Below are positions 632-45,128 of a DNA stretch of 64,000 nucleotides, in pieces. Position 1 is the stretch's first letter; every line of letters begins with the position of its first letter. The notes beneath the pieces were generated by a model. It was not told the DNA's origin, made no database searches, and saw only the letters and a list, made by a program, of their open reading frames with translations. Source of the stretch: Pegoplata infirma (lineage: Eukaryota > Arthropoda > Insecta > Diptera > Anthomyiidae); contig OY992537.1 of assembly GCA_963921195.1 (NCBI GenBank), forward strand, positions 79,200,426-79,264,425, written 5' to 3'. The position numbers and the translations under genes were made by a program.

Positions 632-1980
632 CAAGTAAGAGTGTTAAATTCGGCTGTGCCGAATCTTTTATACCCTCCAACACGTTTAAAATTAAAAAAA
701 AAATTGCGGGGGCGTCTGTTTTTTTGGTGGGGTCGGATGGGGGGGGTCGGCGAAGTTGGTGGGGGACACCTGTACCCCCGCTATATATGTTTACACATTA
801 TTTGTTTATGATATTGACGCTAAAATAATAAATTTTTATCGTTATTTTTAATTAATTTCTATAACAACGCCCCTAAAGGTGGCGGCCTGAAAAAATCGAA
901 TTTTCTAACTTGGTCCAAGCGCAGGTCTATGAACATAATATGGCATACAAATGTTACATTTGTTGAGCAAAAATTAAAAAAAAACTCTTAAAAATATCGT
1001 ATTTTTTAGGGGTCGTTTTAGTTCTTCAAGGGGGAACTTTTTCCCCCCTGGTCCGATATTGCCCATCTTCGAACTTAATGTTACCAGTAAAATAAGAGAT
1101 TTGGACTGCATCGTTATTTCTACAGACGGACGGACATCGCTAGAATGTCTTAGATTCTATCATGGATCAATATTATATATGGGGCATTCCAAGCCAGATC
1201 ACTCACTTTTAGACCCGACCCCTTTCGATTTATTTTATTTTTGGATATGTTTTAGGCCTTATTAAATGCAACTTGGACACCAATTTTCAGTCTTTTATTA
1301 CAAGATGGTGTTGAGCAGCGTTGCCAATTTAGCTTTTTTCCCGCTAGATTTAGTTTTTTTTTAAAAATTTTCGCGGGAAAATTTTGCATTTAGCTTTAAG
1401 CGGATTTTTTAGCTTTTTTGAAAATTTTTTGGCTTTTTTTTAGCTTTTTTTAGACTTTCTTTAGACTTTTTTTAGACTTTTTTTAAACTTTTTTCATTAA
1501 ATATCAATGTAAAAAGAGAAGAAACATACATTTTTACTTGAAAAATTTCTAGTTGTGTTCAAAAACACAACTATATTTCAGAAACATCTAACTATTTATA
1601 TTTTAAAGATTGTCTAAATGAGTTTTAGGAAGTTTGTTTTTAATTTAAATTTTTTTTTCAGAATTCTAATAAGTAATTGAAAATTTTTAAAACTTTAATA
1701 AAAATTTTTAAAATGTATTTGGAAATTTCTTAAATATAAATTTGAGAAAATGAAAATTTTTGGAACATATAAAGAAGATTCTAAAATTTATTTAGTATTT
1801 TGTGAAATAAAATTAAAAAATTTTAAATTTTTTTTTTTTTTTTAATTCTGTTTTATATATTGTTGGACTTTATATTTTATAACTGAAGTTTTTATTTATT
1901 TCGGTTTGAGTCCATATTAATTATTTCTGAGAAATAATTATTTTTGTTGTACAATGAGAAAATCTGAAAAAAAATTAATT

Positions 1981-2057
1981 GACAACACAGGCTAAGTGGA
2001 GATGTCGACAGCTTTCGGAAGAAGCCACCCTTCCTTCGTCAGCACTCTTCGATTGTC
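1981..2057 (-). ncRNA. Hammerhead ribozyme, copy 1
   Basis: Read on the minus strand, the order is: outer stem I GACAA, inner stem I GAGUG, core CUGACGA, an extra A, stem II GGAAG/CUUCC with an 8-nt loop, core GAAA, a short stem III, then cleavage triplet CUC followed by CACUU and outer stem I UUGUC. Stem III pairs A-U and G-C next to the core, then has one mismatch, two more pairs and a UCGA loop. The predicted cleavage lies between 1999 and 1998. The unpaired stretches inside stem I and loop II could make the tertiary contact seen in natural hammerheads. This is a self-cleaving RNA that would cut tandem transcripts into 515-nt units. Confidence 0.85.
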
Positions 2058-2994
2058 ACTGTAGGTGTGTAAGATTAAGATCAGCTATTTAAACGTACAT
2101 TATGGTGAAAAAGCGAACGGGAATTATATCACATTGCATTACCCATATGTTACGTTTAGCACGAACTTAATGAATCTATTTTTAACTTTTTCCAACACAG
2201 TTGTAATTTCTTACACTGCACACTGGGCCGAGATGGTAGTTTTTTTGGCCAAAACTAAAAAAAACAAAATTATTAAATTAAAAAAAGCGAATGCACTATT
2301 GTATTAAGTATGACTTGCTGCACCTTGTCTGTAATTTTTGTAAAAATCGGTACACCCATTCTCTTGGAATGATCCATCAAAGATAAAATATGTATGCTTA
2401 AATCTCCATATACCGTAATCAAAAAAGCTAGCAAATTTATACATTATTAAGATGGGACCTTGTTTTTTTTTGGGGATTAATTTATTTGACAAAGGGAAGT
2501 ACAGCATGTAAATGGGTATGAACAGCTCTTTTTCCCTATTTTTTTTTTTGATGATTTTTGATATTTTTATATAAATTTTGAAAAATTGTTCCATTTGATA
2601 TAGTTGTTCCAAAATGTTCCGCGACATAATCCAAAAGTTAGGATGCCAAAATGTTCGTTGGTTTACTAGCTTTCAGACTGACCTGCCCGCTTTTGCCCGT
2701 TTTTCCATCTGCGTATATAATATCAATAGAAAGGGAGATGAACAAGTCTAAAGTTGTTAAAATGAGCCTTTTTTATTGAATTAAATTAATTTTATGAATT
2801 AACAATTTTCAAGTTTTTCCTAAAGTACATACATAGTGTTTTTCTATATTAAAACGGGATAAAATGAAACCCGGTTACCCAAAAACCCGAATACAAAAAA
2901 AAACCGGTTACGAGAAAAACCCGGTTACACGAAAAATATTTTTTTTTATCGTATTAAAATTTGTTTTTAATACATTGAAAAAAAAAAAAAAATT

Positions 2995-4720
2995 ACCCGG
3001 TTAGGCGGTCCTGACAGCTTTTTGAAAGAGTGTGGAACTTTTGATAACGATGAGTTAAAAAAAGGGTTTTTTTAAACGGGTTTTCAAAAAAAAAATATTT
3101 TTTCTAAATTTTATTTCCATTACATTTTTTAAAACGGGCACAAGCTGGCAACTATTATGGAAAGTGTGGATAGGAAGAATAATTCTGGCCCAGACAGTTT
3201 TTTGAAAGGGCGTGGAACTTTTGATAACGATGAGTTTAAAAAAGGGGTTTAAATAAAAAAATATTTTATTTTTTCAAATTTTTAATATTTCAATAACATT
3301 TGCCTAAACGGGCACAAGCGGGCAACATTTTTAGATAGAAGGGATAAAAAGGAAAATTTTGGCCCAGACAGTTTTTTGAAAGGGAGTGGAACTTTTGATA
3401 ACGATGGGCTTAAAAACGGGGTTTACAAAAAAAAATCAGATTTTTATAAACTCTTATTTCAATTAAATTTTTGAAATCGGGCACAAGCGGGAAATTTTTT
3501 TGGAAAGTGTAAATAAAAAGGATAATTCTGGCCCAAACAGTTTTTTGAAAGGGCGTGGAACTTTTGTTTACAATGAGTTTTAAAAAAGGGGGTTTTCACA
3601 AAAATTTTTTTTATTTTTTTTAATTTTTGGTATTTTAATCTCATTTGTGTAAACGGGCACAAGCGGGTAAGTTTTTTCTAAGGTGGGGTTAAAAAAGGCT
3701 AATTCTGGCCCAGACAGTTTCTTGAAAGAGCGTGGAACTTTTAATGAGTTTAAAAAGGGGGGTTTCAGAAAAAAAAAACAAATTTTTTAAATTTTTTATT
3801 AGCTCTTATTAGAAGTAAATTTATTTTTTTTGAAAACGGGCACAGACGAGTAACTTTTTTGGAAAGTGCTGATAAAAAGGGCAATTCTGGCCTAGACAGT
3901 TTTTTGAATGGGCATGGAACTTTTGATGACGATAACTTTAAAAAGGGGGTTTTCAAAAAAAGACAACTTTTTTCCAATTTTTTATAAACTTGTTTCAATT
4001 TAATTTTTGAAAACGGGCACAAGCGGAAAAGTTTTTTGGAAAGTGGGGATAAAAAGGATAATTCTGGCCCAGAGAGTTTTTTGAAAGAGCGTGGAACTTT
4101 TGATGAGTTTAAAAAGGGAGTTTTCAGAAAAAAAAATAATTTTTTCCAATTTTTTATTAGCCCTTATTAAAAGTAAATTTTTGAAAACGGGCACAGGCGG
4201 GCAATTTTTTTGGAAAGTGCTGATAAAAAGGGTAATTCTGGCCCAGACAGTTTTCTGAAAGGGCGTGGAACTTTTTATGACGATGAGTTTATAAAGAGGG
4301 TTTTCAAAAAAAAATGTTTTTTCAATTTTTTATAAGCTCATTTTTCAATTCAATTTTTGAAAACGGGCACAAGCAGGTAACTTTTTTGGAAAGTGCTGAT
4401 ACAAAGGATAATTCTGGTCCAGACAGTTTTTTGAAAGGCCGTGGAACTTTCCATAACGACGAGTTCTTAAAAGGGGGTTTTCAAAAATGAAATAATTTTT
4501 TTCATTTTTTTATAAATTTTATTTAAATTCCATTTTTGAAAACGGGCACAAGCGGGCAACTTTTTTGGAAAGTGTGGATAGAAGGGATAATTCTGGCCCA
4601 GACAGTTTTTTAAAAGGGCGTGGAACTTTTGATAACGATGAGTATATAAAGGGGGTTTTCAAAACAAAAACAATTTTTTTTTTCAATTGTTTATAAACTT
4701 TTTTTCAATTATATTTCGGA
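2995..4720. repeat. Satellite-like tandem array, about 10 copies of 175 bp
   Basis: The block GGCCCAGACAGTTTTTTGAA recurs near 3013, 3188, 3362, 3531, 3706, 3890, 4067, 4241, 4419 and 4597, a spacing of 170-180 bp. Each unit also carries GGGCACAAGCGGG, TGGAAAGTG and GATAACGATGAG. Copies differ by substitutions and short indels. The unit length is not a multiple of three and indels differ, so the short open frames crossing it are incidental. Confidence 0.9.
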
Positions 4721-4724
4721 AAAA

Positions 4725-4895
4725 GGTATATTCACGTGATTTAAATGAAAATCATTCACGCTCACGCGTGAATCACGTTATTTTTAAACTTTTTTTCAAT
4801 TCAATTTTTAAAAACTTTTATATCACGTGATTTAAGTGAAAATCACTCACTCTCACGCGTGAATCACGTTGTTTTTTGAGTCACGCAAATCACGG
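4725..4895. repeat. CACGTGATT / CACGCGTG palindromic words
   Basis: Two copies of a roughly 75-bp block contain CACGTGATTTAA and CTCACGCGTGAATCACGTT, with related fragments to 4895 ending near AGAGACCATCTC. The same vocabulary occurs at 31590-31770, 41795-41995 and 59040-59140. Probably the subterminal region of a hAT-like family. Confidence 0.6.
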
Positions 4896-5439
4896 GACCA
4901 GAGACCATCTCCAATTCAAAAACATAAACAAAAGACAAGTTTCTCTTCATTTGTTTCATCCATAACATCTGTAAATTTTATTAAAAATTAAGTGTCCACC
5001 CTGAAACAGTTTCCTTGTAGGTCCGATTCCAAAAAGTTTCAAGTCACTTATTTATTACCCTAATATAGGCTTATATTCTGAATTTCAACAAAATCGATTA
5101 ACATTTACGACCTGTAGAGACTTTTGGCCAAAAAACCTACCATCTCGGCCCAGTGTGCACTGTAGTAGATTTTCTCAGAGTTGCAACCCTTAGTAGGACT
5201 TTTCAAGTCTTGAAAAATGTCCGTTAGGTTTGAATTTATATTTCGTATTTCTAATTCTTAGAAATATTACTAAATTGCATTGTACCTTATGAGTTGAGTT
5301 TTTAATTCTGTTTTATATATTGTTGGACTTTATATTTTATAACTGAAGTTTTTATTTATTTCGGTTTGAGTCCATATTAATTATTTCTGAGAAATAATTA
5401 TTTTTGTTGTACAATGAGAAAATCTGAAAAAAATTAATT

Positions 5440-5516
5440 GACAACACAGGCTAACTGGAGATGTCGACAGCTTTCGGAAGAAGCCACCCTTCCTTCGTCA
5501 GCACTCTTCGATTGTC
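5440..5516 (-). ncRNA. Hammerhead ribozyme, copy 2 (one stem I mismatch)
   Basis: Same fold as copy 1, with CUGACGA, extra A, GGAAG/CUUCC, GAAA and CUC intact. The plus-strand base at 5455 is C where the other copies have G. This turns the stem I strand CACU into CAGU and breaks the third stem I pair, so activity may be reduced. Predicted cleavage is between 5458 and 5457, 515 bp from copy 1 after removal of the nested element. Confidence 0.8.
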
Positions 5517-5906
5517 ACTGTAGGTGTGTAAGATTAAGATCAGCTATTTAAACGTACATTATGGTGAAAAAGCGAACGGGAATTATATCACATTGCATTA
5601 CCCATATGTTACGTTTAGCACGAACTTAATGAATCTATTTTTAACTTTTTCCAACACAGTTGTAATTTCTTACACATGTCCTAACGGACATTTTTCAAGA
5701 CTTGAAAAGTCCTACTAAGGGTTGCAACTCTGAGAAAATCTACTACAGTGTAAGAAATTACAACTGTGTTGGAAAAAGTTAAAAATAGATTCATTAAGTT
5801 CGTGCTAAACGTAACATATGGGTAATGCAATGTGATATAATTCCCGTTCGCTTTTTCACCATAATGTACGTTTAAATAGCTGATCTTAATCTTACACACC
5901 TACAGT

Positions 5907-5983
5907 GACAATCGAAGAGTGCTGACGAAGGAAGGGTGGCTTCTTCCGAAAGCTGTCGACATCTCCACTTAGCCTGTGTTGTC
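5907..5983 (+). ncRNA. Hammerhead ribozyme, copy 3 (opposite strand)
   Basis: CUGACGA lies at 5922-5928, GAAA at 5948-5951, and the CUC cleavage triplet ends at 5965. Inner stem I pairs AGUG (5918-5921) with CACU (5966-5969); outer stem I pairs GACAA (5907-5911) with UUGUC (5979-5983). All core bases and stems match copy 1. It is inverted relative to copies 1, 2 and 4. Confidence 0.85.
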
Positions 5984-8535
5984 AATTAATTTTTTTCAGA
6001 TTTTCTCATTGTACAACAAAAATAATTATTTCTCAGAAATAATTAATATGGACTCAAACCGAAATAAATAAAAACTTCAGTTATAAAATTTTAAAATATA
6101 AATGAAGATTTCTGAAATGTATTAGTAAACTTTTTTAATATTGTTCCCGTGTAAAAAAATAATTATATCAAAACATATCTCCTTTGATAAAAACATATAT
6201 GGATCATATATAAATGGATGTAATCAGATCTACATCATATTCATATCTGCTTTAGATATTTTTTGATCCGTAAATTGAGTCATTCTGACAATTTTACATA
6301 TATGTATGCACAGTCGACGTATTTACAAACTGTTTTTCTTAATATTCAGAAATTATAAAAGAAATTTCCACTTCCAATATTTCCCAAATTTCTAAACTTT
6401 ATTTGAAAATGTAATTCAAACAATTTGAAATACATTCTGAAATGCAATTGAAAAATCCCCAAAAAAATCTAAATTGTATTCAAAAATTCCTTTGATTTAT
6501 TTGGAAATTTTGTAGACAATGTTTTGAAATTTCTGAAATGCACTTTGAATTTGTTAACGTTAAAGATTTTCTTGATTGTATTATTTTTAATCTTTATTAA
6601 TATATACCTACATTCGAAATTTTCGGAAACATAATTTTTTTCAAATTTATATTTGTTAAATTTTAATATTTTGTTCATTAATAAGCATAATTTTAGTCCC
6701 AAATATGCTATAGAAGGAATAACATATCCCTATTTTGCAATTCAATTGTAAAATTGAAGAAAAAGCTAATTTAAATTAATAAAAAAAAAGTTTAGCTTTA
6801 TTTTTTAGCTTTTTTTTAAATTTTTTAGCTTTTTTTAGCGGGTTTTTTGAAAAAATCTAGCTTTTTTTGTTTTCAAATTCTGGCAACGCTGGTGTTGAGT
6901 AATCAATTTTTCAAAATGGCAATTTTCTCCAAAAAGTTAAAAATTGAAATTTTTAATTAATTTTGACCATTGAAAAATATAGATATTTTAAAAAAAGTTG
7001 GACAACGTTTTGTTGGTATTTAAATGTAATTTTAGAAAAAAAATATGAAAAAATTATTCGAAGTAATTATCACTTATTTTTTGACGTTTAAAAATTAAAA
7101 TCGACTTTTTGCAAAAGTCCGAAACCTTCGATTTTTTTGTAAAAAACTATAAAAATTCTACTCTAAATTACACAACTTTTAAGCCATAACTCGAGATGTG
7201 ATCACAATTCTTTCTATTTTTTTTTTTTAATTTTTAAAATTGCACCTTTTATGTTTGGCTCTGATTTATTTTATGTGGAGCTCCAAAAAAAAAAAAAAAA
7301 ATTGGTAGATACTGACCCTAACTTACCCTAAATATATTCATTTGGAGGTAAATATACGTCTCACAAAAATTTAGGACGATCGGACATGTTTTTTTTAAAT
7401 AGAGATTTCACATTTTTTTAAAAATAGAGATTTCACAAGGGTGTTGAAAATGTAGGCATTTTTAGCACTAATTTAAAAAATGTTAGCAAAACACAATATG
7501 TAAAATACTTGTCATCTAATTACATTTGAACTTGAAGAATAAAAAAATGTTATTACAGTACAAAATTTCAATGAATTTCCAAAATCGTATTATATTGCTT
7601 AATCAAGTGTTCTGCCATACGTTAGATGCCTGGGGAAGTTGTAATAACTTGGCTGATTTCCAACCGATTTCAGTCTTTGGTACCTTATTAGAGAGGCATT
7701 TTACTCCGTATTATAATTCTGTAACCACTTGAATTAAAACTTAACTTAAAATACCAAAAAATTTGAGAAAACAGAAAAAAATTCATATTTTTCCTTCTAA
7801 TCCGTTTTCTAAACTTCAAGGCCCATGCGGAACACCTTATCCATGTCCGATCGTTCTTAATTTTTGTGAGGCGTATTTTTGTCTCGAAATGAATATATCT
7901 AGGGTAAGTTAGGGTCAGTATCTACCAATTTAGTTTTTTTGGAGTACCATATAAAATAAATCAGAGTCAAAAAATAAAAGGTGCAATTTTCAAAATTTGA
8001 AAAAAATAGAACAAATTGCGATCACATCTCGAATTATTGCTTAAACTTGCAGACGTTTGTAAAAAAAAAAATCGAAGGTTTCGGACTTTTTCAAAAAATC
8101 GATTTTAATTTTTAAACGTTAAAAAATAAGTGATAATTACTTCGAATAATTTTTTTAATATTTTTTTCTAAAACTACATTTAGATACCAACAAAAAGTTG
8201 TCCAACTTTTTTTAAGATATCTATATTTTTAACTGGTCAAAATTAATTGAAAATTTTAATTTTTCCATTTTTTTGAAAAAATCGCCATTTTGAAAACTTG
8301 ATTATTCAACACCATCTTGGAATAAAAGGCTGAAAATTGGTGTCCAAGTTACATTTAATAAGAACTAAAACATATCCAAAAATAAAATAAATCGAAAGGG
8401 GTCGGGTCTAAAAGTAAGTGATTTGGCCTGAAATGCCCCATATACTTTGTGGGGTCCCCGACCGATATTTCGATGTGTTACACACGGAATGACAAAGTGA
8501 GTATACCCCCATACTGTGGTTGGAGGGTATAAAAA

Positions 8536-18977: not shown

Positions 18978-21052
18978 TGCACTAGAGTGGCCATAGTAGA
19001 AATTTTTTGAAAAGTTAAATTTTTCGCACTGAAAAATGTGAGGTTGGGGATAAAAATAATTATGTATATTTAAAAAAATTTTTTTTTTGTTCCGAGTACC
19101 TCCGGGTTGAGCCTAAAGTTTGAAAAACGGATTACAAGGGAAAAATATGACTTTTTTTCATTTTCTCAATTTTTTTGATATTTTAAGTACAGTTTGAATT
19201 CAAATGGTAACTGAATTTTGATTAAGAGTTAATTGTCTATCAAATAAGATGTTAAAAATTAAAATCGGTTGAAAATTAGCCGAGTTATGACAACTTCCCC
19301 CGGCAACTAAAGTGTGGCAAACCTCCTGATCAAGGAATTCGAGCCCCATTTTTGAAATTTATTGAAATTTATTACTGTAATTAATTTTTTTTATTCCTCA
19401 AGTTCCAATGTACTAAGAAGATACATATTTTCATATTGCGTTTTGCTAACTTGTTTTAAATAAATGCTAAAGTGGTCTGAATTTTTCAACACTATTTTCA
19501 AATCTCCAATTTCACATTTTTATTTTTTTGTTAAAGAAATTTTAAAAAATCGGCTATTGGAGTTTAGGGATTTGTTAAGCACATATAAAGGAATAAAAAC
19601 CCCAAAAATTGTAGGGTTTGCTGTTTTCATTTGGCTATTACAGTGATGTAATATCGGCGGATTTCGGGAAAGTAGTGATTTTTGGCCCTTTTTTAGCTTT
19701 TATTTATTTTTTTTTGGTTTTTTTTACAAACTTGATATGTTTTGGACCGAATTATATCCACACGAGATAGAATACTTCAATTTGCAAAATTAGGGCGAAA
19801 TTGACATATAAAAAATTGCCCCTGTTAAGGGTCAAAGGTCAAATTTTAGAAAATTTTTAATTTTTAAACATTAACAGATTTGCTGGGCGGATTTTGCTGA
19901 ATCTACTCGATGTTATCTTAATTGGTCTAAACTATATGGCAAATAATTAAAATTTAAAAATTTAACCCTTAAGTGCTGTTGGGGCCTATAATTTTTTTAA
20001 TTTAATGGAGATAATGTAAGTGTATTTTGTTCAAATGGTCGAATAGGCCCCACCATCACTAAAGGGTTAATATTCTGAATTTAAATAAAAAGACATATGT
20101 TAAGACCTTTTAAAATGACATCAAGTAGTTTCATATATTTCCACTCAGAAAATCTGTTAATGTTTAAAAATTCAAAATCTTCTAAAATTTGACCTTTGAC
20201 CTCAAGTTGGGGAAATTTTTAATTTCTCAATTTTGCCCTAAATTTGCGAATTGAAGTATTCTACCTCGTGTTGATATAATTCGTTCCAAAACATATGAAG
20301 TTTGTGAAAAAAACCAAAAAAAAATAAATAAAAGCTAAAAAAGTGCCAAAAATCACTACTTTCCGAAATCCGCCGAAATTACATCACTGTAATAGCCAAA
20401 TGAAAACAGCAAATCCTACAATTTTTGGGGCTTTTATTCCTATATATGTGCTTAACAAATCCTTAAACTCCAATAGTCGATTTTTTTAAATTTCTTTAAC
20501 AAAAAAAAATAAAAATTTTAAATTGGAGATTTGAAAATAGTGTTGAAAAATTCCGACCACTTTAGCATTTATTTAAAACAAGTTAGCAAAACGCAATATG
20601 AAAAATATTAATCTTCTTAGTACATTGGGACTTGAAGAATAAAAAAATGTTGTTACAGTAGATAATTTCAATAAATTTCAAAAATGGGGCTCGAATCCCT
20701 TGATTAAATGGTCTGACACACGTTAGTTGCCTGGGGAAGTTGTAATAACTTGGCTGATTTTCAACCGATTTTAGTTTTTAATGCCTTATTCGATAGATAT
20801 TTTACTCCAAATCACAATTCTGTGACCATTTGAGTTCAAACTTAACTCAAAATATCGAAAAAATTGAGAAAATGGATAAAAAGTCATATTTTCCCCTTGT
20901 AATTCGATTTTCAAACTTCAGGGCCGATGCGGCAGGTCTTACCCATATCCGATTTTCCTAAAATTTTGTGAGACATGTTTTTACCCCCAAATGCACCTTT
21001 CTAGGGGGGGTCCCGGTCAATATCTAACAACTTCGTTTTTTTGGTGCACCCT
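18978..21052. mobile_element. Large foldback element, arms about 1 kb
   Basis: The left arm (about 19080-20000) and right arm (about 20130-20990) are inverted with moderate divergence. Matched landmarks include GGCTATTACAGTGATGTAAT with ATTACATCACTGTAATAGCC, and TTAGCCGAGTTATGACAACT with its counterpart near 20740. The ends GAGTGGCC and GGTGCACCC are next to TA on both sides, compatible with a TA duplication. The right arm is related to 7520-7860. No transposase. Confidence 0.65.
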
Positions 21053-31792: not shown

Positions 31793-32141
31793 TGTTGACT
31801 TCCAAAGTCAGTTTAAGGATTAGAAATGAAAAGTCCTTGTTTTATTTAATGTTCTTCACGAACCAAATTTGTTTAAAACTAGGCGCTTTTATTATAGGCT
31901 TCAATGCCCTTGAGTTGTTCTTCTAATACTAAAAATGTAACTGACTTCTATTTTGTACAATAAAAAGGAACAAAAAAATCATGTTACTAAAAACTAATAC
32001 ACACAAAGAAAAGTGTGTATATCAAATTTAAATGAGCCAATCAAATTGGTATAAGAGATCAATACAAAATTAAACGATCTTAATATATACATCACCATCC
32101 GTTGACATCTCAATTAACCCATTGTTAAACAGGGTTTAACA
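31793..32141 (-). repeat. 3' LTR of the BEL/Pao element
   Basis: 349 bp, TG...CA on either strand, identical by eye to 40629-40977. Contains an AATAAA poly(A) signal on the minus strand. Its minus-strand 5' end is the 19-bp palindrome TGTTAAACCCTGTTTAACA. Confidence 0.95.
31841..31846 (-). promoter_or_regulatory. Poly(A) signal AATAAA in the 3' LTR
   Basis: AATAAA on the minus strand, about 100 nt downstream of the LTR initiator position and about 50 nt before the LTR end, where the R/U5 border would be expected. Confidence 0.6.
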
Positions 32142-32718
32142 TATTCCCGGGCGGAAGTGAAAGGAGCACCCATTCCACGTTTCGGAAATGACCCAGCCAA
32201 AGATCGGATGTTATGCATTTAGAAGGCTCGGCTTTGGATGAACGATGTCGCTAAACAAAATCTGGGCAATTGTAAGATACCCGATGACGCCGTCAACTCT
32301 TGACAAGTTGCAGATCTATGGTGGACCAGGGAGGCTTGCACATGTTCGGGAGCCAGCGCTGCCTGTGCCAAGGAGGCTGGAAAATTAACTGGAACATGAT
32401 CTGATTATTTTACTGATGATGATTCGTGTAGCATCAATATGGATCTGACGCTGCCTACTTCACAATGGCGTTGATATTAACATGTTTCGGTCGTGGTTTA
32501 CGCGACCATTGCAGCGCTAACCCATTCTCTTCACAAAGGGTTAAATTCCAGGAATAACCAGCCATAGTTGAGTGGGTGATTTAGAAAGCACAGATGGCAG
32601 CGGGGCTTACTAGACATCGTCTAAATATGTTAAAAGGGAAGAAATAAAAAAAATAATGTAATGTGCATATTAGTATTCTGTTAAGCGACTATCTCTTGTG
32701 GATTGGTAATTTGGTGGA
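32142..32718 (-). other. 3' untranslated region of the BEL/Pao element
   Basis: 577 bp of mixed composition, clearly less AT-rich than the flanking DNA. Stops occur in all frames, so there is no env. A clear polypurine tract is not visible next to the LTR; the minus strand ends only in CCCGGGAATA before TGTTAAAC. Confidence 0.7.
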
Positions 32719-35700
32719 TTATTGAGTGTTGGTTGGGAGTGGTGAAGGGGGGCCACAGTTTGTGGGCAGTAGGCATAGTTTTACTATTGAGCGCCGTATA
32801 AAGCCGTTTTGGGTTTTGATTTCGGCAACTCGAACTTTGCTGTCGGTTCCGTAGATCACTTTGGCAACACGGCCAAGCCGCCACTCGGAGGGGGGTAATA
32901 AATCGTCCTTGATGATGACGAAATCGTTTTCTTTGATGTTATGGCATTCAGTCTTCCACTTGAATCTTCGCTGGAGCTCAGTGATATACTCGTTTTTCCA
33001 GCGTCGTGCGAATACGTGTTGAAGAGCTTTAAGTCGATCCCATCGTTTGAGGAAACTTATTTTTTCTAAAGGTGGCTCTTCAGGGGCTTCAGGTGGTGCT
33101 ATCAGAGGGGCGCCTCGTAGCAGATGACCTGGAGTCAGTGGAAGGAGTTCGGTAGGGTTTTCACTTAATGGAGACATCGGACGCGAGTTCAATACTGCTT
33201 CGATGCGAACGAGGAGAGTGCTGAATTCTTCGAAAGTGAAAGTGAGATTATTTGCAACTTTCTTCAGATGCGATTTCATGCTCTTGACGGCAGCCTCCCA
33301 GAGGCCGCCCATGTGAGGAGCATATGGCGGTATAAAAGACCAGGTAAAGCCGTGGGAACCGTACTTTTCAATTAAAGCTTGTTCGGCGGTTTTCAGAAAG
33401 ACGTTATGTGTTTTTAATAACGCGTAGCTGGCACCCAGGAAATTGCGACCGTTGTCGGAAAACATGGTTTTAGGCAGACCTCGTCGGCCCGTGAACCTAG
33501 CGAAGCAGGCCATGAAAGCCTCTGTGGAGAGGTCGGAGCATGCTTCGAGGTGTACTGCTCGAGTGGAGAAACATACGAATACTGCTGCGTAACCTTTAAT
33601 TAATTTTGCGTTTCTTAAAGGTGATGATTTCACGTTGAATGGGCCAGCAAAGTCAACACCGGTGTAGGTGAACGGCAACGAAAAATTTACTCTCTCTGGA
33701 GGAAGTGTAGCCATTATTTGAAGCTGGAACTTGTGTTTGTAGATGGTGCACGCTCGGCAATTTCGAATACATTTTCGAACAAGGCTTCTAAGCCGCGGTA
33801 TATAAAAACGTTGTCTAAGCGCACGTAGCATAATGTGATGTTCAGCGTGGAGCAGTATGCGATGAGTATATTCGACGAGGAGTTTTGCAAAATGAGACTT
33901 TTCAGGTATTATTATAGGATGGCGTTCGTCGTAGCTTAACCCGGAGTTACTTAGCCTGCCTCCTACTCGGAGGAGCCCTTCTTTATCTATAAATGGGCTT
34001 AGGGTAAGTATTCTACTTTTTCGATGAACAGGTCTTTTATCTTGAAGACAATCGTACTCTCTGTTGAAGTGATTTTTCTGAGCGACCATGATAAGACGAG
34101 TTTTCACAAATTGAATTTCGTTGGAAGTGATGTATGGATCAATACAAAATGGTCGCTTGCAGATGCGGTTGATAAATCTAAAGCGATAACTTATTACTCT
34201 TAGCGCCTTGTCAAGCGATGAAAACTCTTCAAGCACGTCAGACTCATCCATCGGTGTGACCGAGGAGGTATTTTTTTCTTTACCTTCACCAGGATTGGTA
34301 TTTAGATGAAAGTTAGCGCTAAGTTGTGTTTTAGGACTTTTTTTCGTTTCCAAATCGGTTGGATCGAAAGTTCGAGGTTCTGGCCAGAGCTCGGGAGGTT
34401 GTCTTAGCCAGGAAGGCCCATGCCACCACAATTCACTTACTATAAGTTCTTGAGGGGAGCAGCCACGGGTACCAAGATCGGCGGGGTTGTCGTCGGTCTT
34501 TACATGGTTCCAATGATTTTGATTTGCAAAAGCACTAATTTTCTTGATACGATTTGAAACAAAAGTCTTTAAAGTATCAGGCGGTTTTTGCAGCCAACCT
34601 AGAACGATTGAGGAATCCGTCCACAGGTACATTTCATATTTGAACTTGTAGTCCGTTATTAGGCTTTTCATCAGCGTTGTTAATAACAGAGCTCCACACA
34701 GTTCGAGCTTAGGAATTGTCAGCTTTTTTAGAGGTGCGACTTTTGTTTTTGCTACCAGCAAATGACAGCTAATTGACCCGTCAGGAGCGGTTGTCCGAAT
34801 AAATACTGTGCCACAGTATGCCTTCTCGGACGAATCACAGAATCCGTGGATTTGTATTTGATGCTGCGGAGAAAAGTTTACCCATCTAGGAATCTTTAAG
34901 GTTGCTAAATGTGGGAGATTTTGTAGAAATTTGTTCCACCGTACGAGAATGTGTGGTAAAACGCCTTCATCCCACCCTGCCTTATCTTCCCATAACTCTT
35001 GCATCAATAGTTTTGCTACTACAACAACTGGGCCTAACCACCCTATTGGATCGAAAAGTTTTGCGATGACTGATAAGATCTGTCTTTTTGTAGCTAATGG
35101 GGTAATTTCAATTGGGTCAATAACATAGTAAAACGAATCTGTCATAGCATTCCATCGAATGCCCAATGTTTTGATAGAGCTAGAATCGTCAAACTTTAAA
35201 AAATCTTCGTCCAGAAGATCTTCCCGGGGCAAATGTTCAAGGAGAACTCGATCATTTGCAGTTATTTTCTTCATTGGAAGGTAAGCTGAGTTTAAAGCTT
35301 TTATAAGCTGGCACTGTTTGGTCTTTGCTTCTTCCAGATCATGACCACCAGACAGGATGTCATCCACGTAGATTTCGTTTTTCAAAATAAACGACGCTTT
35401 CGGATACAGATTCTTGCATGCGTTGCTAAGCTCTTGAAGAGTTCGAATGGCCAGGAATGGCGCACAATTTACACCAAACGTTACTGTCTTCAGTTGGTAT
35501 GCTTTCACTTGGTTTTCAGATTCGCTTTTGAATAAAATTTGTTGGTAGGGGCGGTCGGCTTCATGCACCAAAATTTGGCGATACATCTTCTCGATGTCTC
35601 CGGTGAAAACAAATCTATAATTTCGCCATTGCAAAATGATTTTCATTAAATCTGATTGTAGAATTGGACCCTGATGTAGAACGTCATTCAAGGAGAATCC

Positions 35701-38058
35701 ACTATTTGTTTTCTTAGAGGCGTTGAAGACGACGCGAACTTTTGTAGATTTACTTTCAGGTCGTACGACCGCATGATGGGGTAGAAAAAACGAGGAGTAT
35801 TTTTCAGCTGGAGCTTCATTGTGCAATACGGGTTCCATATGATTCAAGTCGATGTATTCTTGAAGAACCTTACTATATTGTGACTTTAATTCAGGCGTCC
35901 TGTTAAGTGTTTTTTCCATACGTAAATATTGCGCTAGTGCCATATTCCTTGAAGGACCCAAATAGATGTCGGTTGGAAATTCTTCTTTGAACGGCAGGCG
36001 AACGACATATCTACCCTCTGGCTGTCGGAAAATGGTTCTTTGGTAGTATTTTTCGCAGTAATCATAGGCTTCTGATATCTCAGTGTCCTTTTCAACCTCT
36101 TCTATCTCCCAAAACTTTTTAATTTGTTCGTGGAGAACGAAGTCTGCCGATGGCGAAACCATTGTTGAAAATGAATGTACCTCACTAATTGCCGCTGGTC
36201 CGGACAAATACCAACCAAAATGCGATTCTCTAGCTTCGAAACAGTCTAAAACATTTGATTGAACACCGCTAAGGTTTATATATGGCAAATAATCACTTCC
36301 AATGATCATGTCAATAGCTGCCGGCTTATAAAAATAGGGATCCGCCAGATCTAAATGCTTAACATTCTCTATACCGGACACCTTTACTCGTCGGGAGGGC
36401 AAAAAATGTGAAAGTTTTGAAACCACAATAGCCATGATATTTATTTTAAAATTCGACCCTCTTGATTTTAACGTCAAAAAACAACGACCTTTAGAACTAC
36501 CTACGACAGTTCCTCCCAGACCAGAAATTTGAGAATTATGAGCCTCCATTGGCAGCTCCAATTGTTGTTGAATACGCTTGGTGACAAATGATTTCTCAGA
36601 ACCGGCATCCAGGAGAGCCCTAATGGTGAAAAATTCTCCAGATTTTTCAATATTGACTAACGCTGTAGGCAAAACTGTTGTGCTTTCATTTTGAGCGAAA
36701 TGTGCTTGCACCCTTTCTGCGGGAGCGGTGGATGCTGCAGCTGTGTTTACTTGAGTTTTTGGAGCATTCGATTGTGCCTGAGCCCCAGAAAATGACGGCC
36801 TTTCGTCATCATGACGATACGGATGTGTTGTAGTTCTTGTATTTGCGGGCTTCTTGCGCTTATCACCGTCTTCGATGTGTAGCATCGTATGGTGCTTCTC
36901 ATTGCACCTCGTGCAAAGATTTTTACTCTGACACTTTGGTTTGAAGTGACCCGGGGAGAGACAATTAATGCAATATTTTTCATCGTATGCATATTTTACT
37001 CTTTCTTTCGGTGACAGGGACTTGAAATGTTTGCAGAGCCTCAAGGGGTGATTCTGCCTACACTTTTTGCAGCTAAACTTAGACTTTTCTGGAACCGATT
37101 GCGCGTGAAAAGACTGATTTTTTGACGATTGGCTTTCCTTTACGTAAGGTTTTCGCAAATCGGCAACTGTTTCCAGCATTTCGACCCTCTGGGAGAGGTA
37201 GTCACTCATGTTCTGCCATGTTGGCCAAACTTTGTGATCTTTTAAAGTGACCTCCCAAGCCCGTATGGTTTCTTCTGGAAGCCGTGATGCACACAAATGT
37301 ATTAATATTGCATCCCAAGTCTTTGTAAGCCCTAAAGTTTCAAAAATTTTTAAACTTTCGTTGATAACGCTTTGAATCTGCCGGATTGCCTTTGAAGATT
37401 CATTTTGTATGGCCTGCACCCCGAACATCGTCTTCATTTGTTGATGGGCCAGGATACGAGGATTTTCATACCTATCTTCTAATGCTTCCCAGGCTAAATT
37501 GAAACTTTCGTCAACTAAATCAAAACGACAAACTATTTGATTAGCTTCCCCCTTTGTTTTGCTTCGCAAATGGTAAAGTTTTTGCGCTTGAGACAAATGC
37601 GGATGTTTAATAACGACTGCCTTAAACATATCGCGGAAAGCTGGCCACTTGGAGTACCCTCCTTCAAACACTTGAATTTCACATGCTGGTAACTTCAACC
37701 CCGAATGATGACTTGTTGTTTTGTTTGCTTCTTGCTTTTCACCGGGTTGTTCCTTTTCTGCAATGTTCTCAGTTTTTATTCGGTCCAGTATGGCCGCCTT
37801 GCAGATTTCAAATTTGTCGCATGCTTCTTCAAACTTAGTCGATACTTCATCTTTGGCGTCTTCCTCCTGATCTTCTTCCTCCAATGAATATAAATATGCT
37901 TCATATGATTCTGCTGCTTTCGTCCATCTTCTATCCAACTCGACTAGTTTCACCTCAATGACAGATACTGTTACGTCGTTTTGCAGTAATATATCGAACT
38001 TGGAGCAACATGTGTTCAGCTGCTTGATGTCGGCTTTGCACCTCTTCTTTGCTGTCAT
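32719..38058 (-). CDS. BEL/Pao gag-pol polyprotein, intact
   Basis: One frame of 1779 codons encodes all proteins for reverse transcription and integration. N-terminal gag-like region with a DUF1759-type block (about residues 125-275). Three zinc-binding motifs: C330-C333-H337-C342, C363-C366-H371-C376, C382-C385-H389-H394. Aspartic protease (DUF1758-type) with DAGS, D484. Reverse transcriptase with D821 and YVDD (897-900). Pao-type RNase H with D1075, E1119, D1148, D1194. Integrase zinc motif (H1404, H1408, C1434, C1437), DDE core D1469, D1535, E1588, and a DUF5641-like C-terminus (about 1685-1765). No stop or frameshift, and no catalytic residue missing. The start ATG at 38058 has A at -3. 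Gag and Pol in one frame is normal for this family. Length is in the usual BEL/Pao range. Confidence 0.97.
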   Translation of the reverse strand: MTAKKRCKADIKQLNTCCSKFDILLQNDVTVSVIEVKLVELDRRWTKAAESYEAYLYSLEEEDQEEDAKDEVSTKFEEACDKFEICKAAILDRIKTENIAEKEQPGEKQEANKTTSHHSGLKLPACEIQVFEGGYSKWPAFRDMFKAVVIKHPHLSQAQKLYHLRSKTKGEANQIVCRFDLVDESFNLAWEALEDRYENPRILAHQQMKTMFGVQAIQNESSKAIRQIQSVINESLKIFETLGLTKTWDAILIHLCASRLPEETIRAWEVTLKDHKVWPTWQNMSDYLSQRVEMLETVADLRKPYVKESQSSKNQSFHAQSVPEKSKFSCKKCRQNHPLRLCKHFKSLSPKERVKYAYDEKYCINCLSPGHFKPKCQSKNLCTRCNEKHHTMLHIEDGDKRKKPANTRTTTHPYRHDDERPSFSGAQAQSNAPKTQVNTAAASTAPAERVQAHFAQNESTTVLPTALVNIEKSGEFFTIRALLDAGSEKSFVTKRIQQQLELPMEAHNSQISGLGGTVVGSSKGRCFLTLKSRGSNFKINIMAIVVSKLSHFLPSRRVKVSGIENVKHLDLADPYFYKPAAIDMIIGSDYLPYINLSGVQSNVLDCFEARESHFGWYLSGPAAISEVHSFSTMVSPSADFVLHEQIKKFWEIEEVEKDTEISEAYDYCEKYYQRTIFRQPEGRYVVRLPFKEEFPTDIYLGPSRNMALAQYLRMEKTLNRTPELKSQYSKVLQEYIDLNHMEPVLHNEAPAEKYSSFFLPHHAVVRPESKSTKVRVVFNASKKTNSGFSLNDVLHQGPILQSDLMKIILQWRNYRFVFTGDIEKMYRQILVHEADRPYQQILFKSESENQVKAYQLKTVTFGVNCAPFLAIRTLQELSNACKNLYPKASFILKNEIYVDDILSGGHDLEEAKTKQCQLIKALNSAYLPMKKITANDRVLLEHLPREDLLDEDFLKFDDSSSIKTLGIRWNAMTDSFYYVIDPIEITPLATKRQILSVIAKLFDPIGWLGPVVVVAKLLMQELWEDKAGWDEGVLPHILVRWNKFLQNLPHLATLKIPRWVNFSPQHQIQIHGFCDSSEKAYCGTVFIRTTAPDGSISCHLLVAKTKVAPLKKLTIPKLELCGALLLTTLMKSLITDYKFKYEMYLWTDSSIVLGWLQKPPDTLKTFVSNRIKKISAFANQNHWNHVKTDDNPADLGTRGCSPQELIVSELWWHGPSWLRQPPELWPEPRTFDPTDLETKKSPKTQLSANFHLNTNPGEGKEKNTSSVTPMDESDVLEEFSSLDKALRVISYRFRFINRICKRPFCIDPYITSNEIQFVKTRLIMVAQKNHFNREYDCLQDKRPVHRKSRILTLSPFIDKEGLLRVGGRLSNSGLSYDERHPIIIPEKSHFAKLLVEYTHRILLHAEHHIMLRALRQRFYIPRLRSLVRKCIRNCRACTIYKHKFQLQIMATLPPERVNFSLPFTYTGVDFAGPFNVKSSPLRNAKLIKGYAAVFVCFSTRAVHLEACSDLSTEAFMACFARFTGRRGLPKTMFSDNGRNFLGASYALLKTHNVFLKTAEQALIEKYGSHGFTWSFIPPYAPHMGGLWEAAVKSMKSHLKKVANNLTFTFEEFSTLLVRIEAVLNSRPMSPLSENPTELLPLTPGHLLRGAPLIAPPEAPEEPPLEKISFLKRWDRLKALQHVFARRWKNEYITELQRRFKWKTECHNIKENDFVIIKDDLLPPSEWRLGRVAKVIYGTDSKVRVAEIKTQNGFIRRSIVKLCLLPTNCGPPSPLPTNTQ

Positions 38059-38377
38059 CTTTAGTAATCGCTAACCGAATTTGAAACCAATAAGAGAAAA
38101 ACCTAACCGATAACTTCACCTTGGCTATCTTCGTGGAGAAGGAAACAAACCTTCTGTTGATGCAGCAATCAAAGTGAAAAAGAAAAAAAAATTGTGCCAA
38201 ATCTGAGATATGATAACTACTGCTGAACTCCAGGAATGACCCCAATCGTATATAATTGATACTCCTTTTAATTACCGTCCGTAATTTTGAAGTGCCCCAA
38301 ATATACTTTATTGTATCGCACCTTTTGATTTGAAAATGTGTTTAAAAATCAAAATTTTATATGGTATAATCGCCTAT

Positions 38378-39257
38378 AAATTTCTCCAAGAAATTTGTTA
38401 AAATATGCCCAATACTCAAATAAAATTTCCAAGAAATTTTTCGCTGTGTACCAGAAAACGATAGCTTATCAATTTCCCCCGGAAATTGTGTTAAAAAATC
38501 CAAAAAATTCAATAAAAATTTTTCACGGTGAACCCTACTGGTTGGTAGGACAATTTCTCCAAGAAATTGTTTTAAAAAAAAATCGATAATAATCGATACA
38601 AATTTTCAAAAATTTTTGCGGCGTACCAAAGTCGTAGACTTAACAATTTCTCCAAGAAATTGTGTAAAAAAAAATCAAAAATAATCGATAAAAATTTTTC
38701 CAAAAAATTTTGCGGTGTACCAAAGTCGTAGACTTGACAATTTCTCCAAGAAATTGTGTTAACAAACAAATACAAATAAATCGCGCAAAAATCACTTAGT
38801 AAAACTCGTTGTGCCTAACCCCTTTTGTTTTCCAAAATATCACAATATAATGTAAAAGGTTATACAAAATAAAATAAATCTTTGAGAAAAAAAAATTGTA
38901 TATAAGTAGCTTTTGAATCATAAATTTCTCCCAGAAATTTTGTAAACGATCAATCAACAATCTTTATAAAATAATTTTCGCTGAGTGTACCCAAAAAATG
39001 TGTGATTGTGTATCAATATCAGTGGATTTACAATTTCTCCAAGAAATTGTGTTAAAAAAGCCAATAAATTCACTTAAAATTTTCACAGTGTACCAAAAAA
39101 ATTTGTTTGAGTGTACCAAAATTTGATTATAAGCTTCTCCAAGAAGTTTCGTAAATAATCAACCAGTAAAAAAAAGATTTTTTTTCAGTGTAATAATTTT
39201 TCTCCGTGTATACAATCTTTTGTGTCAGTGTATCAATAATTTCTCCAAGAAATATTG
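38378..39257 (-). promoter_or_regulatory. Array of ten stem-loops in the BEL leader
   Basis: Stem-loops at 38378-38396, 38422-38440, 38470-38488, 38550-38570, 38643-38663, 38737-38757, 38932-38950, 39030-39050, 39131-39149 and 39234-39257. In the minus-strand RNA the type form is ACAAUUUCU, UGG, AGAAAUUGU. All have a 3-nt loop (UGG, GGG or UUG). Stem changes are compensated: CAAUUUCC with GGAAAUUG at 38470, AAAUUUCU with AGAAAUUU at 38378 and 38932, CUUCU with AGAAG at 39131. GUACAC or GUACAC-like words lie between the loops. Candidates: packaging or dimerisation signal, Gag-binding sites, or translation control. Confidence 0.8.
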
Positions 39258-40615
39258 TAAAATATCACCAACGAAAATTTTTTATTTAAAAATGTACACT
39301 TTTTTTCTCACTATTTTGCCAAACAATTTTTCGACGTGTACCACTATTTTTTTTCAAAAACACAACTTATTTCCACCAAACTATTTTTCTTTAATTTCAG
39401 GGTTAAAAAAAAAATCGATTAACTAACTCACCGGTTTTTTAATTTTTCCCCTGGTGATCACTGGTATCGGAAACCCTGATTTTTTTTCTTCGTATGGTGG
39501 TGTTTTTTTTTCCAAGTATTGCTGTTGTTGTTATTTTTGTGAGACAGTTTCTAACTGTTGATTTTATAGCGGCACAAATTTATAAAAACACAAGAATTCT
39601 TTAATTGCAATTAAATTAAATGCACTTTTTGCTAATTCTTGGAGAATTGTTGTATTTGTTGTTTTTTTTCTTTATTATCTTTTTTTTTTTTTTTTATCCA
39701 CTGTTCTCCTTTTTGTTTGTTACCACTTGTTGCATTTTTTTTATTTCACTTTCACACACTATTTTTTTTATATGTATTTTGGAATATTTTTTTTGTAAAT
39801 ATTGCTTTTATTTATTTAATATTTGATTAATATTTTCTTCGCAATATTTTATACACGATCTCCTTACAAAAAAATAATTTCAGTGTGAAATTTAATTCGT
39901 GGGTTTAACAATATTTCGTCTTTTCCTCTCCTGTACCTTCCAATGCAATGAGGAACGATGTGGAATCGAAGCAATTTGTTGTAATTTCATGCGGTAAGAT
40001 AAATGACAATTCTTTAATTGCTACTGCGCATGACCGATAATAGTGATGATTTCTTTTTATTTTAGTTTGGTACTTTTTTAGATTTTAGTGGTACTTTTTC
40101 AATATAATGGTACAATTCAACGGAAATGTTAGGGATTTATCTTTTTTGTACTGGATATCTCAATTCTGATAATTTCTTTCAATATTTTTGCAATCTCGTA
40201 GAGAAAAAAAAAATATTGTCGCACAAAATACCAATAAAAAACACATTACATACCTTATTTATTCCTGAATTATGTTCAAACCTTTACAAATTCTTCTTGA
40301 ATTGTTCTGCCTTGGAGGTTTGGTGTGATTATCCTATAATCTGTGTGCCGGGATGCACAAAATTATGACGTCTCGTTCGATCGGTTTATAAGCACGGGAT
40401 GCTGTTGATGAAGAGCCGCTTGATGATAATGAAGTACTTGTTTTAAATTACTTCTGCTGCCGGGATGTAGCCTTGTAATTTTATTAGCCAAACAGTCCTC
40501 CAGTATGACTGCTGCTGTAGATGTTGGGGTTGTTCGGGTAGAGCGCAACCGCCGGGGGTTTTAGTGGACACCTTGTCACTAATTCTATTCCACTCCTAGC
40601 CAAATCTAGGAGGTA

Positions 40616-40626
40616 TCGAAGGACCA
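40616..40626 (-). promoter_or_regulatory. Primer-binding site, tRNA-Tyr type
   Basis: TGGTCCTTCGA on the minus strand starts 2 nt inside the 5' LTR. It is complementary to the 3' end TCGAAGGACCA, which matches eukaryotic tRNA-Tyr as I know it (11 nt). Confidence 0.75.
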
Positions 40627-40628
40627 AA

Positions 40629-40977
40629 TGTTGACTTCCAAAGTCAGTTTAAGGATTAGAAATGAAAAGTCCTTGTTTTATTTAATGTTCTTCACGAACC
40701 AAATTTGTTTAAAACTAGGCGCTTTTATTATAGGCTTCAATGCCCTTGAGTTGTTCTTCTAATACTAAAAATGTAACTGACTTCTATTTTGTACAATAAA
40801 AAGGAACAAAAAAATCATGTTACTAAAAACTAATACACACAAAGAAAAGTGTGTATATCAAATTTAAATGAGCCAATCAAATTGGTATAAGAGATCAATA
40901 CAAAATTAAACGATCTTAATATATACATCACCATCCGTTGACATCTCAATTAACCCATTGTTAAACAGGGTTTAACA
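40629..40977 (-). repeat. 5' LTR of the BEL/Pao element
   Basis: 349 bp, the same as 31793-32141. Acts as promoter for the genomic RNA on the minus strand. It begins with the palindrome TGTTAAACCCTGTTTAACA (40959-40977). Confidence 0.95.
40775..40780 (-). promoter_or_regulatory. Initiator-like TCAGTT in the 5' LTR
   Basis: TCAGTT on the minus strand matches the arthropod Inr consensus. No TATA box sits at -30, so a TATA-less, Inr-driven promoter is likely. This would put R between here and the AATAAA. Confidence 0.5.
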
Positions 40978-42825: not shown

Positions 42826-44119
42826 CAGGGTTGACAACCGATACCCACCTAGAGTAACGGTATTTGGCTATTGTACCGCAACCAATAAAGATATGGACAT
42901 TTTCAAAAGCGATTATGAAAGCTGATGAAATTTCTAGCATTTTAAATGTGGCACTTCGTGTTTTTACCGGTTCGATTTAGTTATATAGGCCAATACCTTT
43001 ATAATACCGTTTAAAACGGTATTATAAAGGTATTGACCTATATTTCGAAAACGAACCGGTAGAAACACGAAGTGACACATTTAAAATATTAGAAATTTCA
43101 TCAGCTTTCATAATCGCTTTTGAAAATGTCCATTAGACCGGGTCGAAAAAAAAAAGTTCCCACTGTGCGGGCCTAATTTTAAAGCTTACCTCGAAAAAGT
43201 TCCATAGCCAAAATATAAGATTTTTAGGTCGCGATTTGGTACAGCCGAAATCGTTATTTGTTCATAACTTTGTCATTTGATGTCCGATCGTTTTAAAAAA
43301 AAATTTGTTTGAAAGTCCTCCGCGAGTACTAAATTTGACCCATATCTGATTTTGACCTCTGAGCTCATCTTCGTGTCATGAGTGTTAGTTTCTCAGCTTT
43401 CTACCCACCTAAATGATTTTTATTTTTCCATTAAATTATAGCATTAAAAAATTCATGAAATTCTTCCCTTAGAAGTACCCTCTTAAATTAATTAACAAAA
43501 AAGTTACATTCAATTTTAAATTTCCATAGAAAAAGATTTAAAACACTTGTTCGTATGTATTTAAATACAAACTAAAAAAATTAAATATAGTTTAAAGGCA
43601 TAATAACAAGTGTTTTTTCTAATTTTCTTTATATTGTATATGAAAATCTTAAATCAAATGTAACTTTTTTGTTAATAAATTTAACTGGATACTTCCAAGG
43701 GAAGAATTTCATGAATTTTTTAGTGCTATAATTTAATGGAAAAATAAAAATCATTTAAGTGGGTAGAAAGATGAGAAACTAACAATCATAACAAGAAGAT
43801 GACCTCTGAGGTTAAAACCAGATATGAGTCAACTTTAGTACTCGCTGAGGACTTTCTAACAATTTTTTTTTTAAAACGATCGGACATCAACTGACAAAGC
43901 TATGAACAAAAAATGATTTCGGCGGTACCAAATCGCGACCTAAAAATCTAATATTTTGGCTATGGAACTTTTTTGAGGTAAGCTTTAAAATTAAGCCCGC
44001 ACAATGGGAACTTTTTTTTTCTCCTTTATGGTCGACCCAGTCTAATGTCCATATCTTTATTGGCTGCGGTACAATAGCCAAATACCGTTATTCTAGGTGG
44101 GTATCGGTTGCCAACCCTG
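42826..44119. mobile_element. hAT-type MITE, CAATTTTG duplication, interrupted
   Basis: Ends CAGGGTTGACAACCGATACC and, inverted, GGTATCGGTTGCCAACCCTG; perfect flanks CAATTTTG at 42818-42825 and 44120-44127. The right arm is split at 43133/44053 by another MITE. Without it the element is about 375 bp and nearly a perfect palindrome. Confidence 0.9.
43134..44044. mobile_element. hAT-type MITE nested in the previous MITE
   Basis: Ends TAGACCGGGTCGA and TCGACCCAGTCTA; perfect 8-bp flanks ATGTCCAT at 43126-43133 and 44045-44052. Arms of about 400 bp are inverted and diverged, with landmarks AAAACGATCGGACATCA and AAATCGCGACCTAAAAATCT. No transposase. Confidence 0.9.
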
Positions 44120-44127: not shown

Positions 44128-44608
44128 TTACAAAAAAAATTCTTAGAATATCCTTTTTTTGCATAGAAAATGTTACAGGATCTGTATTTGTTTTACATTA
44201 AAAAACTTTTTTTCTATTACATTAGAATAGGAAAATATCTAAAAATCTAAAACATTTTGATAGTCTAACTTTAGCAAAACTGTTTTGGGATTTTTTTTTA
44301 AAATTCACAGAACCGGAAATTTGTTGTTTAGAAAAAAAGCTACAAAAAATTTTGAGAATTGGAAAATGTTACTTAACAAAAGTCTTAGAATCTTATATTG
44401 TTTTACAAAAAAGCGATTAGAATCTTAATATTAAATGAAGGAATAATGCGACTAAATCTTCAAAAGTTTTTACAAAAAAACAAAAAAATGTTTTAGAATT
44501 TGAGAATTTTGCTATAAAAATAAGGAATGAGGGTTTTTCTGAAATAAACATTTACGACTGACTTAATCTGACTTTAGATAAAAAAAATTATATTAGAAAA
44601 ATGTAACT
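44128..44608. other. AT-rich stretch, nothing recognised
   Basis: Repeated TTAGAATnTTnnAA words only; no gene or element boundary identified. Confidence 0.4.
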
Positions 44609-45128
44609 GAAGTTTTATTTATTTCGGTTTGAGTCCATATTAACTATTTCTGAGAAATAATTATTTTTGTTGTACAATGAGAAAATCTGAAATAATTAAT
44701 TGACAACACAGGCTAAGTGGAGATGTCGACAGCTTTCGGAAGAAGCCACCCTTCCTTCGTCAGCACTCTTCGATTGTCACTGTAGGTGTGTAAGATTTAG
44801 ATCAGCTATTTAAACGTACATTAAGGTGAAAAAGCGGACGGGAATTATATCACATTTCATCACCCATATGTTACGTTTAGCACGAACTTAATCAATCTAT
44901 TTTTAACTTTTTCTAACACAGTTGTAATTTCTTACACTGTAGTAGATTTTCTCAGAGTTGCAACCCTTAGTAGGACTTTTCAAGTCTTGAAAAATGTCCG
45001 TTAGGTTTGAATTTATATTTCATATTTCTAATTCTTAGAAATATTACTAAATTGCATGGTACCTTATGAGTTGAGTATTAATTCTGTTTTATTTATTGTT
45101 GGACTTTATATTTTATAACTGAAGTTTT
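44609..45128 (-). repeat. Hammerhead-bearing 515-bp unit, isolated copy
   Basis: Runs from TGAAGTTTTATTTATTTCGG to a second TTTTATAACTGAAGTTTT, so it is one full unit closing on the start of the next. It is uninterrupted at TTACACTGTAGTAG, and so serves as the empty site for the insertion at 2219-5157. Confidence 0.8.
44702..44778 (-). ncRNA. Hammerhead ribozyme, copy 4
   Basis: The same 77-nt fold as copies 1 and 3, with CUGACGA, extra A, GGAAG/CUUCC, GAAA, CUC, inner stem I GAGUG/CACUU and outer stem I GACAA/UUGUC all intact. Predicted cleavage is between 44720 and 44719. Being far from the other three copies, it shows that the ribozyme block is preserved across dispersed units. Confidence 0.85.

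Follow-up and report, generated by a model that had tools for sequence, protein, structure and literature searches.

A putative type I hammerhead ribozyme in a dispersed non-coding repeat with Penelope-like organisation in the fly Pegoplata infirma

A 64,000-nucleotide stretch of the Pegoplata infirma genome (assembly GCA_963921195.1, contig OY992537.1, positions 79,200,426 to 79,264,425; hereafter the window) contains four copies of a 77-nt segment in which the conserved hammerhead residues CUGANGA, GAAA and an NUH triplet follow one another in order, and each copy sits within a non-coding repeat unit of about 510-515 nt. Judged from the core, the stems, a complementarity between two loops, and the nature of the carrier element, the proposal in a first-pass annotation that hammerhead ribozymes lie inside a dispersed fly repeat is partly supported. 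The putative self-cutting RNA looks genuine in its sequence, slightly unusual in its build, and housed in a kind of element for which hammerheads are already known. The explanation that we favour, and regard as fairly probable, is that the unit is a non-autonomous, non-coding retroelement carrying a type I hammerhead and inserting by a Penelope-style target-primed route, probably with the enzyme of a Penelope-like element.

All four segments were found at the coordinates that the first-pass annotation had given them, the order of boxes that it described (CUGACGA, stem II, GAAA, stem III and CUC, enclosed by stem I) agrees with the sequence, and counting confirms its predicted 5' ends at 1998, 5457, 5966 and 44719. 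Its treatment of 1981-5983 as one feature does not hold, as two distinct insertions fall within this extent and the repeat exceeds 77 nt. The four copies, and the elements of copy C, are as follows.

1981..2057, minus strand: hammerhead motif copy A, predicted cut before 1998
5440..5516, minus strand: hammerhead motif copy B, single base change at 5455 giving G.G in inner stem I
5907..5983, plus strand: hammerhead motif copy C, predicted cut before 5966
44702..44778, minus strand: hammerhead motif copy D, predicted cut before 44719
5922..5928, plus strand: core box CUGACGA of copy C, from the sequence
5929..5929, plus strand: extra A between A9 and stem II of copy C, from the sequence; A or T in 3,364 genome matches
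5930..5947, plus strand: stem-loop II of copy C, its loop containing UGGC and GGCU; folds alone at -5.4 kcal/mol
5948..5951, plus strand: core box GAAA of copy C, from the sequence
5952..5962, plus strand: weak stem III arm of copy C with the palindrome TGTCGACA, from the sequence; the arm alone has no predicted structure
5963..5965, plus strand: cleavage triplet CUC of copy C, from the sequence
5971..5974, plus strand: AGCC in the stem I internal loop of copy C, complementary to GGCU of loop II

Read along the sense strand, the motif comprises the 5' part of stem I, CUGACGA, the extra A, GGAAGGGUGGCUUCUUCC (stem-loop II), GAAA, the arm GCUGUCGACAU, CUC, CACUU, AGCC, UGU and GUUGUC. Stem I, with an inner part of 5 bp and an outer part of 6 bp, is predicted to be the open helix, which makes the topology type I. 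Three of the window copies are identical and the fourth, at 5440-5516, differs by one base (C at plus-strand position 5455). This copy fails a 4-bp stem I descriptor that the other three pass, because the change turns the third inner pair from G-C to G.G; the stem I proposed to enclose all four copies is therefore intact in three and has one broken pair in this one. Since the four segments are copies of one repeat, they are counted once. The core is likewise a partial match to what had been proposed, in that the boxes and their order stand but the core is not canonical, with an extra A placed between CUGACGA and stem II. Two further features had escaped the first-pass annotation: the stem III arm carries a C.U mismatch, and the AGCC loop beside inner stem I complements GGCU in loop II. 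Two other readings, a type III fold drawing on upstream bases and a cut after a GUC inside stem III, were rejected by eye on the sequence.

The motif is abundant. A 43-nt motif pattern with at most three mismatches has 3,501 matches in the 1.384-Gb assembly and none for a reversed control, a count that can include copies of a second subfamily (three known positions differ). A pattern for this second subfamily gave 1,653 matches, with some places matched twice, and again none for the control; among the matches listed, five strings differ from the first subfamily at N7, at the extra nucleotide (U for A) and at one loop II base, and one of the five also differs in the stem III arm. Fifteen second-subfamily motifs spaced about 509 nt apart, eleven minus followed by four plus, form a large divergent tandem array at C1:38362221-38370173. 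Of the sampled copies, 80 span the motif; 46 match it exactly, the core is intact in 74, and in 64 the core, the pairing of stems I and II and the first pair of stem III are all preserved. A signature pattern for loop II requiring C or T after GAAA has 64 matches and its reversed control five, and in 47 of the 64, many of them subfamily copies, at least four of the five stem II pairs are kept. Two matches with one sequence (on C4 and C532), seen from the core to GAAAC, differ in two stem II pairs, with both sides of each changed, and are candidate kin.

Across the genome matches, the nucleotide between A9 and helix II is A or T in 3,364, C or G in 26 and absent in two. In a viroid hammerhead, an extra A at this position moderately reduces the cleavage rate, cleavage with U is 3-4-fold faster than with A, and either C or G is strongly detrimental (PMC3705267). 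The same counts would be expected from two source sequences followed by about 1% decay. The hammerhead in question is that of the plus strand of chrysanthemum chlorotic mottle viroid, which like the present motif has one extra A between A9 and G10.1 (PMC3705267); this is a plant viroid and no kinship is implied.

The carrier was characterised from a genomic unit (L002:1654-2168) of 515 nt and GC 0.307. Its longest open frame is of 59 codons and it has no frame for a reverse transcriptase or a GIY-YIG endonuclease; lacking such a frame, it can be at most a non-autonomous derivative of a Penelope-like element. Units occur in tandem with periods of about 515 and 550-570 nt, or 508-511 nt in the second subfamily, and some insertions exceed one unit. 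That the host is a fly is made very likely by a host exon near one copy, for which the only named match of 22 is a Drosophila yakuba protein (89% identity over 67% of the query). An exact 22-mer had no match in viral contigs, nor had the repeat in phages and plasmids. No description of the present repeat was recognised in a full-text literature search, the scope of which excluded most subscription journals and the 2014 paper on Penelope hammerheads. The window holds the following insertions.

1840..2218, minus strand: 5'-truncated insertion A, unit position 191 to 569, that is, 54 nt into the next unit
5158..5675, minus strand: insertion arm B, from unit position 193 through to 195 of the following unit, paired head-to-head with arm C
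5680..6089, plus strand: insertion arm C, unit position 125 to 534
44604..45128, minus strand: insertion D, one full unit, position 1 to 528

About 43 nt beside insertion B (5122-5164) match the 5' flank of insertion A (2212-2254) at 95% in inverted orientation, and the 3' end of B, at unit position 195, lies at neither of the usual 3' points given below. A rearrangement or a shared target may underlie the match and the odd end.

The ends of the insertions carry most of the evidence for the mode of mobilisation. The unit was mapped onto 70 merged regions of contig C1, chosen by exact anchors, together with the window, giving 118 5' ends and 118 3' ends; older copies are under-represented because of this choice of contig and anchors. 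One region (C1:63428000) with six ends of each kind was dropped, as nine of its ends, at U218/U230 (positions in the unit), reflect breaks of the alignment within one array; 112 ends of each kind remain. The 5' ends are scattered. The 3' ends fall at U11-20 in 36 of 112 and at U50-57 in 40 of 112, with about two expected in each interval; they correspond to the start of the next unit, and there is no constant poly(A). Sorted by orientation, 85 insertions comprise 52 in single orientation, 33 head-to-head with 3' ends outward, and none tail-to-tail. A terminal match of at least 9 nt, in some cases an A/T run, is present in 32 of the 85 (18 of 33 head-to-head, 14 of 52 single) compared with 5.6% of swapped flanks. 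The fixed positions of the 3' ends, the scatter of the 5' ends, the head-to-head pairs and the target duplications fit target-primed reverse transcription that starts internally and uses one strand or both.

This organisation, with tandem and head-to-head copies, a tail, 5' truncation and target duplication, is that of Penelope-like elements. They are described as having partial tandems, inverted copies that are mostly head-to-head, a 31-bp tail that is optional, and target duplications of 8-10 bp (PMC3846280), and a Penelope-like protein cuts and extends both strands in vitro, an internal start giving a genomic tail, with the hammerhead dispensable for insertion (PMC11167929). The present repeat shares the tandem and partial-tandem units, the head-to-head copies and the duplications, as well as a short 3' tail from an internal reverse transcription start with the hammerhead upstream of it (PMC11167929, PMC3846280). 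It differs in having no open frame for a reverse transcriptase or endonuclease; moreover, the Penelope hammerheads published are described as minimal and without stem III residues (PMC7761336), whereas the present motif has a weak stem III arm.

A plausible course of events under the favoured explanation begins with transcription of a tandem locus, which would produce a multi-unit RNA. The hammerhead, whose pairing is read from the sequence, would then cut after CUC. An AGCC:GGCU loop contact may align stems I and II, and the extra A or U beside A9 would be tolerated. Closure of the palindromic stem III may be more favourable between two units than inside one. Unit-length, multi-unit or circularised RNA would serve as template for reverse transcription at one or both nicked target strands, starting at one of two fixed internal points, which lie about 11-20 or 50-57 nt beyond the start of the next unit. 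In this scheme the enzyme is presumed, and the sample itself shows the fixed positions of the 3' ends, the scatter of the 5' ends, the pairs and the target duplications.

Several observations weigh against the favoured explanation. The covariance-model check put forward with the first-pass annotation gave no match: none of the Rfam hammerhead families is found in the window at the gathering score or at E up to 10, and a 121-nt stretch searched against Rfam at E up to 10 likewise returned no hammerhead family. A genome-wide search with RF00163 also gave 0 matches but is uninformative, as 73 of 166,337 candidates were scored and 0 of 14 controls detected. The extra nucleotide may be the reason that the Rfam models miss the motif. 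In computed folding, from which loop-loop contacts are left out, the hammerhead fold has -8.5 kcal/mol (-11.4 with added compatible pairs) versus a minimum of -16.8, and 169 of 200 shuffles fold as well or better. Ensemble pairing is 67-89% for outer stem I, about 2% for inner stem I, 8% for stem II and less than 1% for stem III; stem II alone is stable at -5.4 kcal/mol, and the stem III arm alone is unstructured, so that stem III is weak in these predictions. In animals, hammerheads are described whose stem III has one pair and a palindromic cap (PMC7229834), and a weak stem III hinders cleavage of the monomer and not of the dimer (PMC7761336). Nor is there clear constraint: for 104 copies whose anchor lies outside the motif, the substitution rate per covered site is 0.0101 in the motif, 0.0091 in U61-200, 0.0075 in U469-515 and 0.0132 in U429-442, with higher values of 0.0207 in U1-60 and 0.0324 in U201-351, where subfamily variants occur, and conservation of the motif does not exceed that of its surroundings. 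Covariation for the motif is thin, and within the family it is uninformative because no motif variant is present in more than three sampled copies. The predicted cleavage site, U411, leaves no pile-up of 5' ends, with 2 of 112 within 3 nt and 1.5 expected, and one of these two is probably a break in a copy with an insert; this comparison rests on a second anchor and on partner arms, because the motif-anchored copies (L001-L030) cannot start there. The defined RNA fragments anticipated in the first-pass annotation thus have no trace in the 5' ends of sampled genomic insertions, and since these insertions cross the cleavage site, the templates used were uncut, rejoined or multi-unit there. Finally, no reverse transcriptase linked to the repeat was seen, flanking open frames having been viewed by eye only.

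Taken together with the expectation that scanning repeats genome-wide gives some matches, the absence of an Rfam match, of a predicted minimum in the hammerhead fold, of clear conservation and of a cleavage footprint would suit a chance resemblance, without cleavage, in an otherwise ordinary repeat. The motif had already been seen when the descriptor was written, and PMC7936874 had been read when the loop contact was sought, the latter being a further point for caution. When the whole window is shuffled by dinucleotides, 10 of 400 versions contain the loose descriptor (4-bp stems I and II), two a 4/5-bp descriptor with a short stem III and one a 5/5-bp descriptor. For shuffles of the 515-nt unit, on both strands, the loose descriptor occurs in 13 of 60,000 in one run and 122 of 749,634 in a larger one; 25 of the 122 have any 4-nt complement between the loop following stem I and loop II, and none of the 749,634 combines the descriptor with a GC-rich complement (at least three G/C) such as the AGCC:GGCU of the real unit. 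The organisation of the element, established independently of the discovery of the motif, is one for which hammerheads are reported, and the extra nucleotide is of a kind tolerated by an active hammerhead. We consider chance quite improbable. More credible, although still short of an even chance, is that the repeat is a retrozyme, in which the hammerhead cuts and rejoins unit-length RNA into circles that template tandem insertions. Animal non-LTR (long terminal repeat) retrozymes have type I hammerheads, short non-coding AT-rich tandem units, weak palindromic stem III and target duplications, as here (GC 0.307), and insertions longer than one unit with no stop at the cleavage site fit a rejoined circle; however, the unit of about 515 nt exceeds the 150-450 nt described (PMC7229834, PMC7761336), and multi-unit linear transcripts account for the tandems equally well. 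This reading is compatible with the favoured explanation and makes a stronger claim on the template.

As to the enzyme, a long interspersed nuclear element (LINE) could mobilise the repeat in place of a Penelope-like element, as for short interspersed nuclear elements. LINEs, too, leave truncated 5' ends and target duplications of about 9-16 nt, and a Penelope reverse transcriptase is not demonstrated for the repeat. Yet the 3' ends lie at the start of the next unit without constant poly(A), and the tandems and head-to-head pairs match descriptions of Penelope elements, so that we judge a LINE unlikely. Matches to GIY-YIG also occur in open frames, with no tie to the repeat: PF01541 has five genome matches, three of them at 29.7 bits in open frames of 480, 313 and 230 codons. 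Of two host frames compared with Pfam, one is Arrestin_C and one has no match. Low-scoring GIY-YIG frames lie at C1:208937798, C3:167103559, C4:130943985 and C4:87546985 (480, 313, 230 and 222 codons); they are possibly Penelope-type endonucleases, and no adjoining reverse transcriptase was demonstrated.

The motif also resembles the type III hammerheads of delta-like agents and Diptera, compared from toad, termite, D. pseudoobscura, Musca domestica, Rhagoletis zephyria and Hermetia illucens (PMC7936874, in which examples from housefly, fruit fly and soldier fly are given as in preparation). These have a 5-bp inner helix I and a GCCR that pairs with YGGC on a 6-bp stem II, and the toad form has a cUC site and a GAAAg box (PMC7936874). 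The present motif shares the 5-bp inner helix I, a loop GCC run complementing GGC in loop II and the 6-bp stem II, and with the toad form the CUC site and GAAAG box; it is unlike them in being type I, in having GCCU and not GCCR, and in the extra A or U in the core. Because the type III topology is absent, we class it as alike to this group and not as a member, a likeness by published description from which no descent is concluded. That the motif is a type I circular permutation of a delta-like-agent hammerhead with a fixed extra A or U, carried by a young and abundant fly retroelement and spread through multi-unit or circular RNA by a Penelope-type enzyme acting on both nicked strands, is in our estimate doubtful; if true, it would connect a common fly mobile element with the ribozymes found in delta-like circular RNAs.

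What hammerheads do in animal retroelements is described as unclear (PMC7229834, PMC7761336), and a fly with thousands of copies about 1% apart would lend itself well to testing it. Its two subfamilies, one with A and one with U as the extra core nucleotide, amount to a natural test of the insertion. The 33-to-0 excess of head-to-head over tail-to-tail pairs gives genomic support for both-strand priming, reported in vitro for one Penelope-like protein (PMC11167929). As the Rfam models did not list the motif, similar fly ribozymes may be under-counted.

Other features of the window include a BEL/Pao LTR retrotransposon at 31793-40928, a recent insertion with 300-nt LTRs that are 100% identical and one 1,783-codon open frame that holds a Pao peptidase, a reverse transcriptase and an integrase zinc-binding domain. 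A tandem repeat with a period of about 175 nt occupies 3007-4760, and an AT-rich satellite with a 35-nt period lies at 53760-54619. A palindrome at 43147-44020 has 387-nt arms, 91% complementary and 100 nt apart, and further large palindromes are located at 54572-55446 and 19152-20881.

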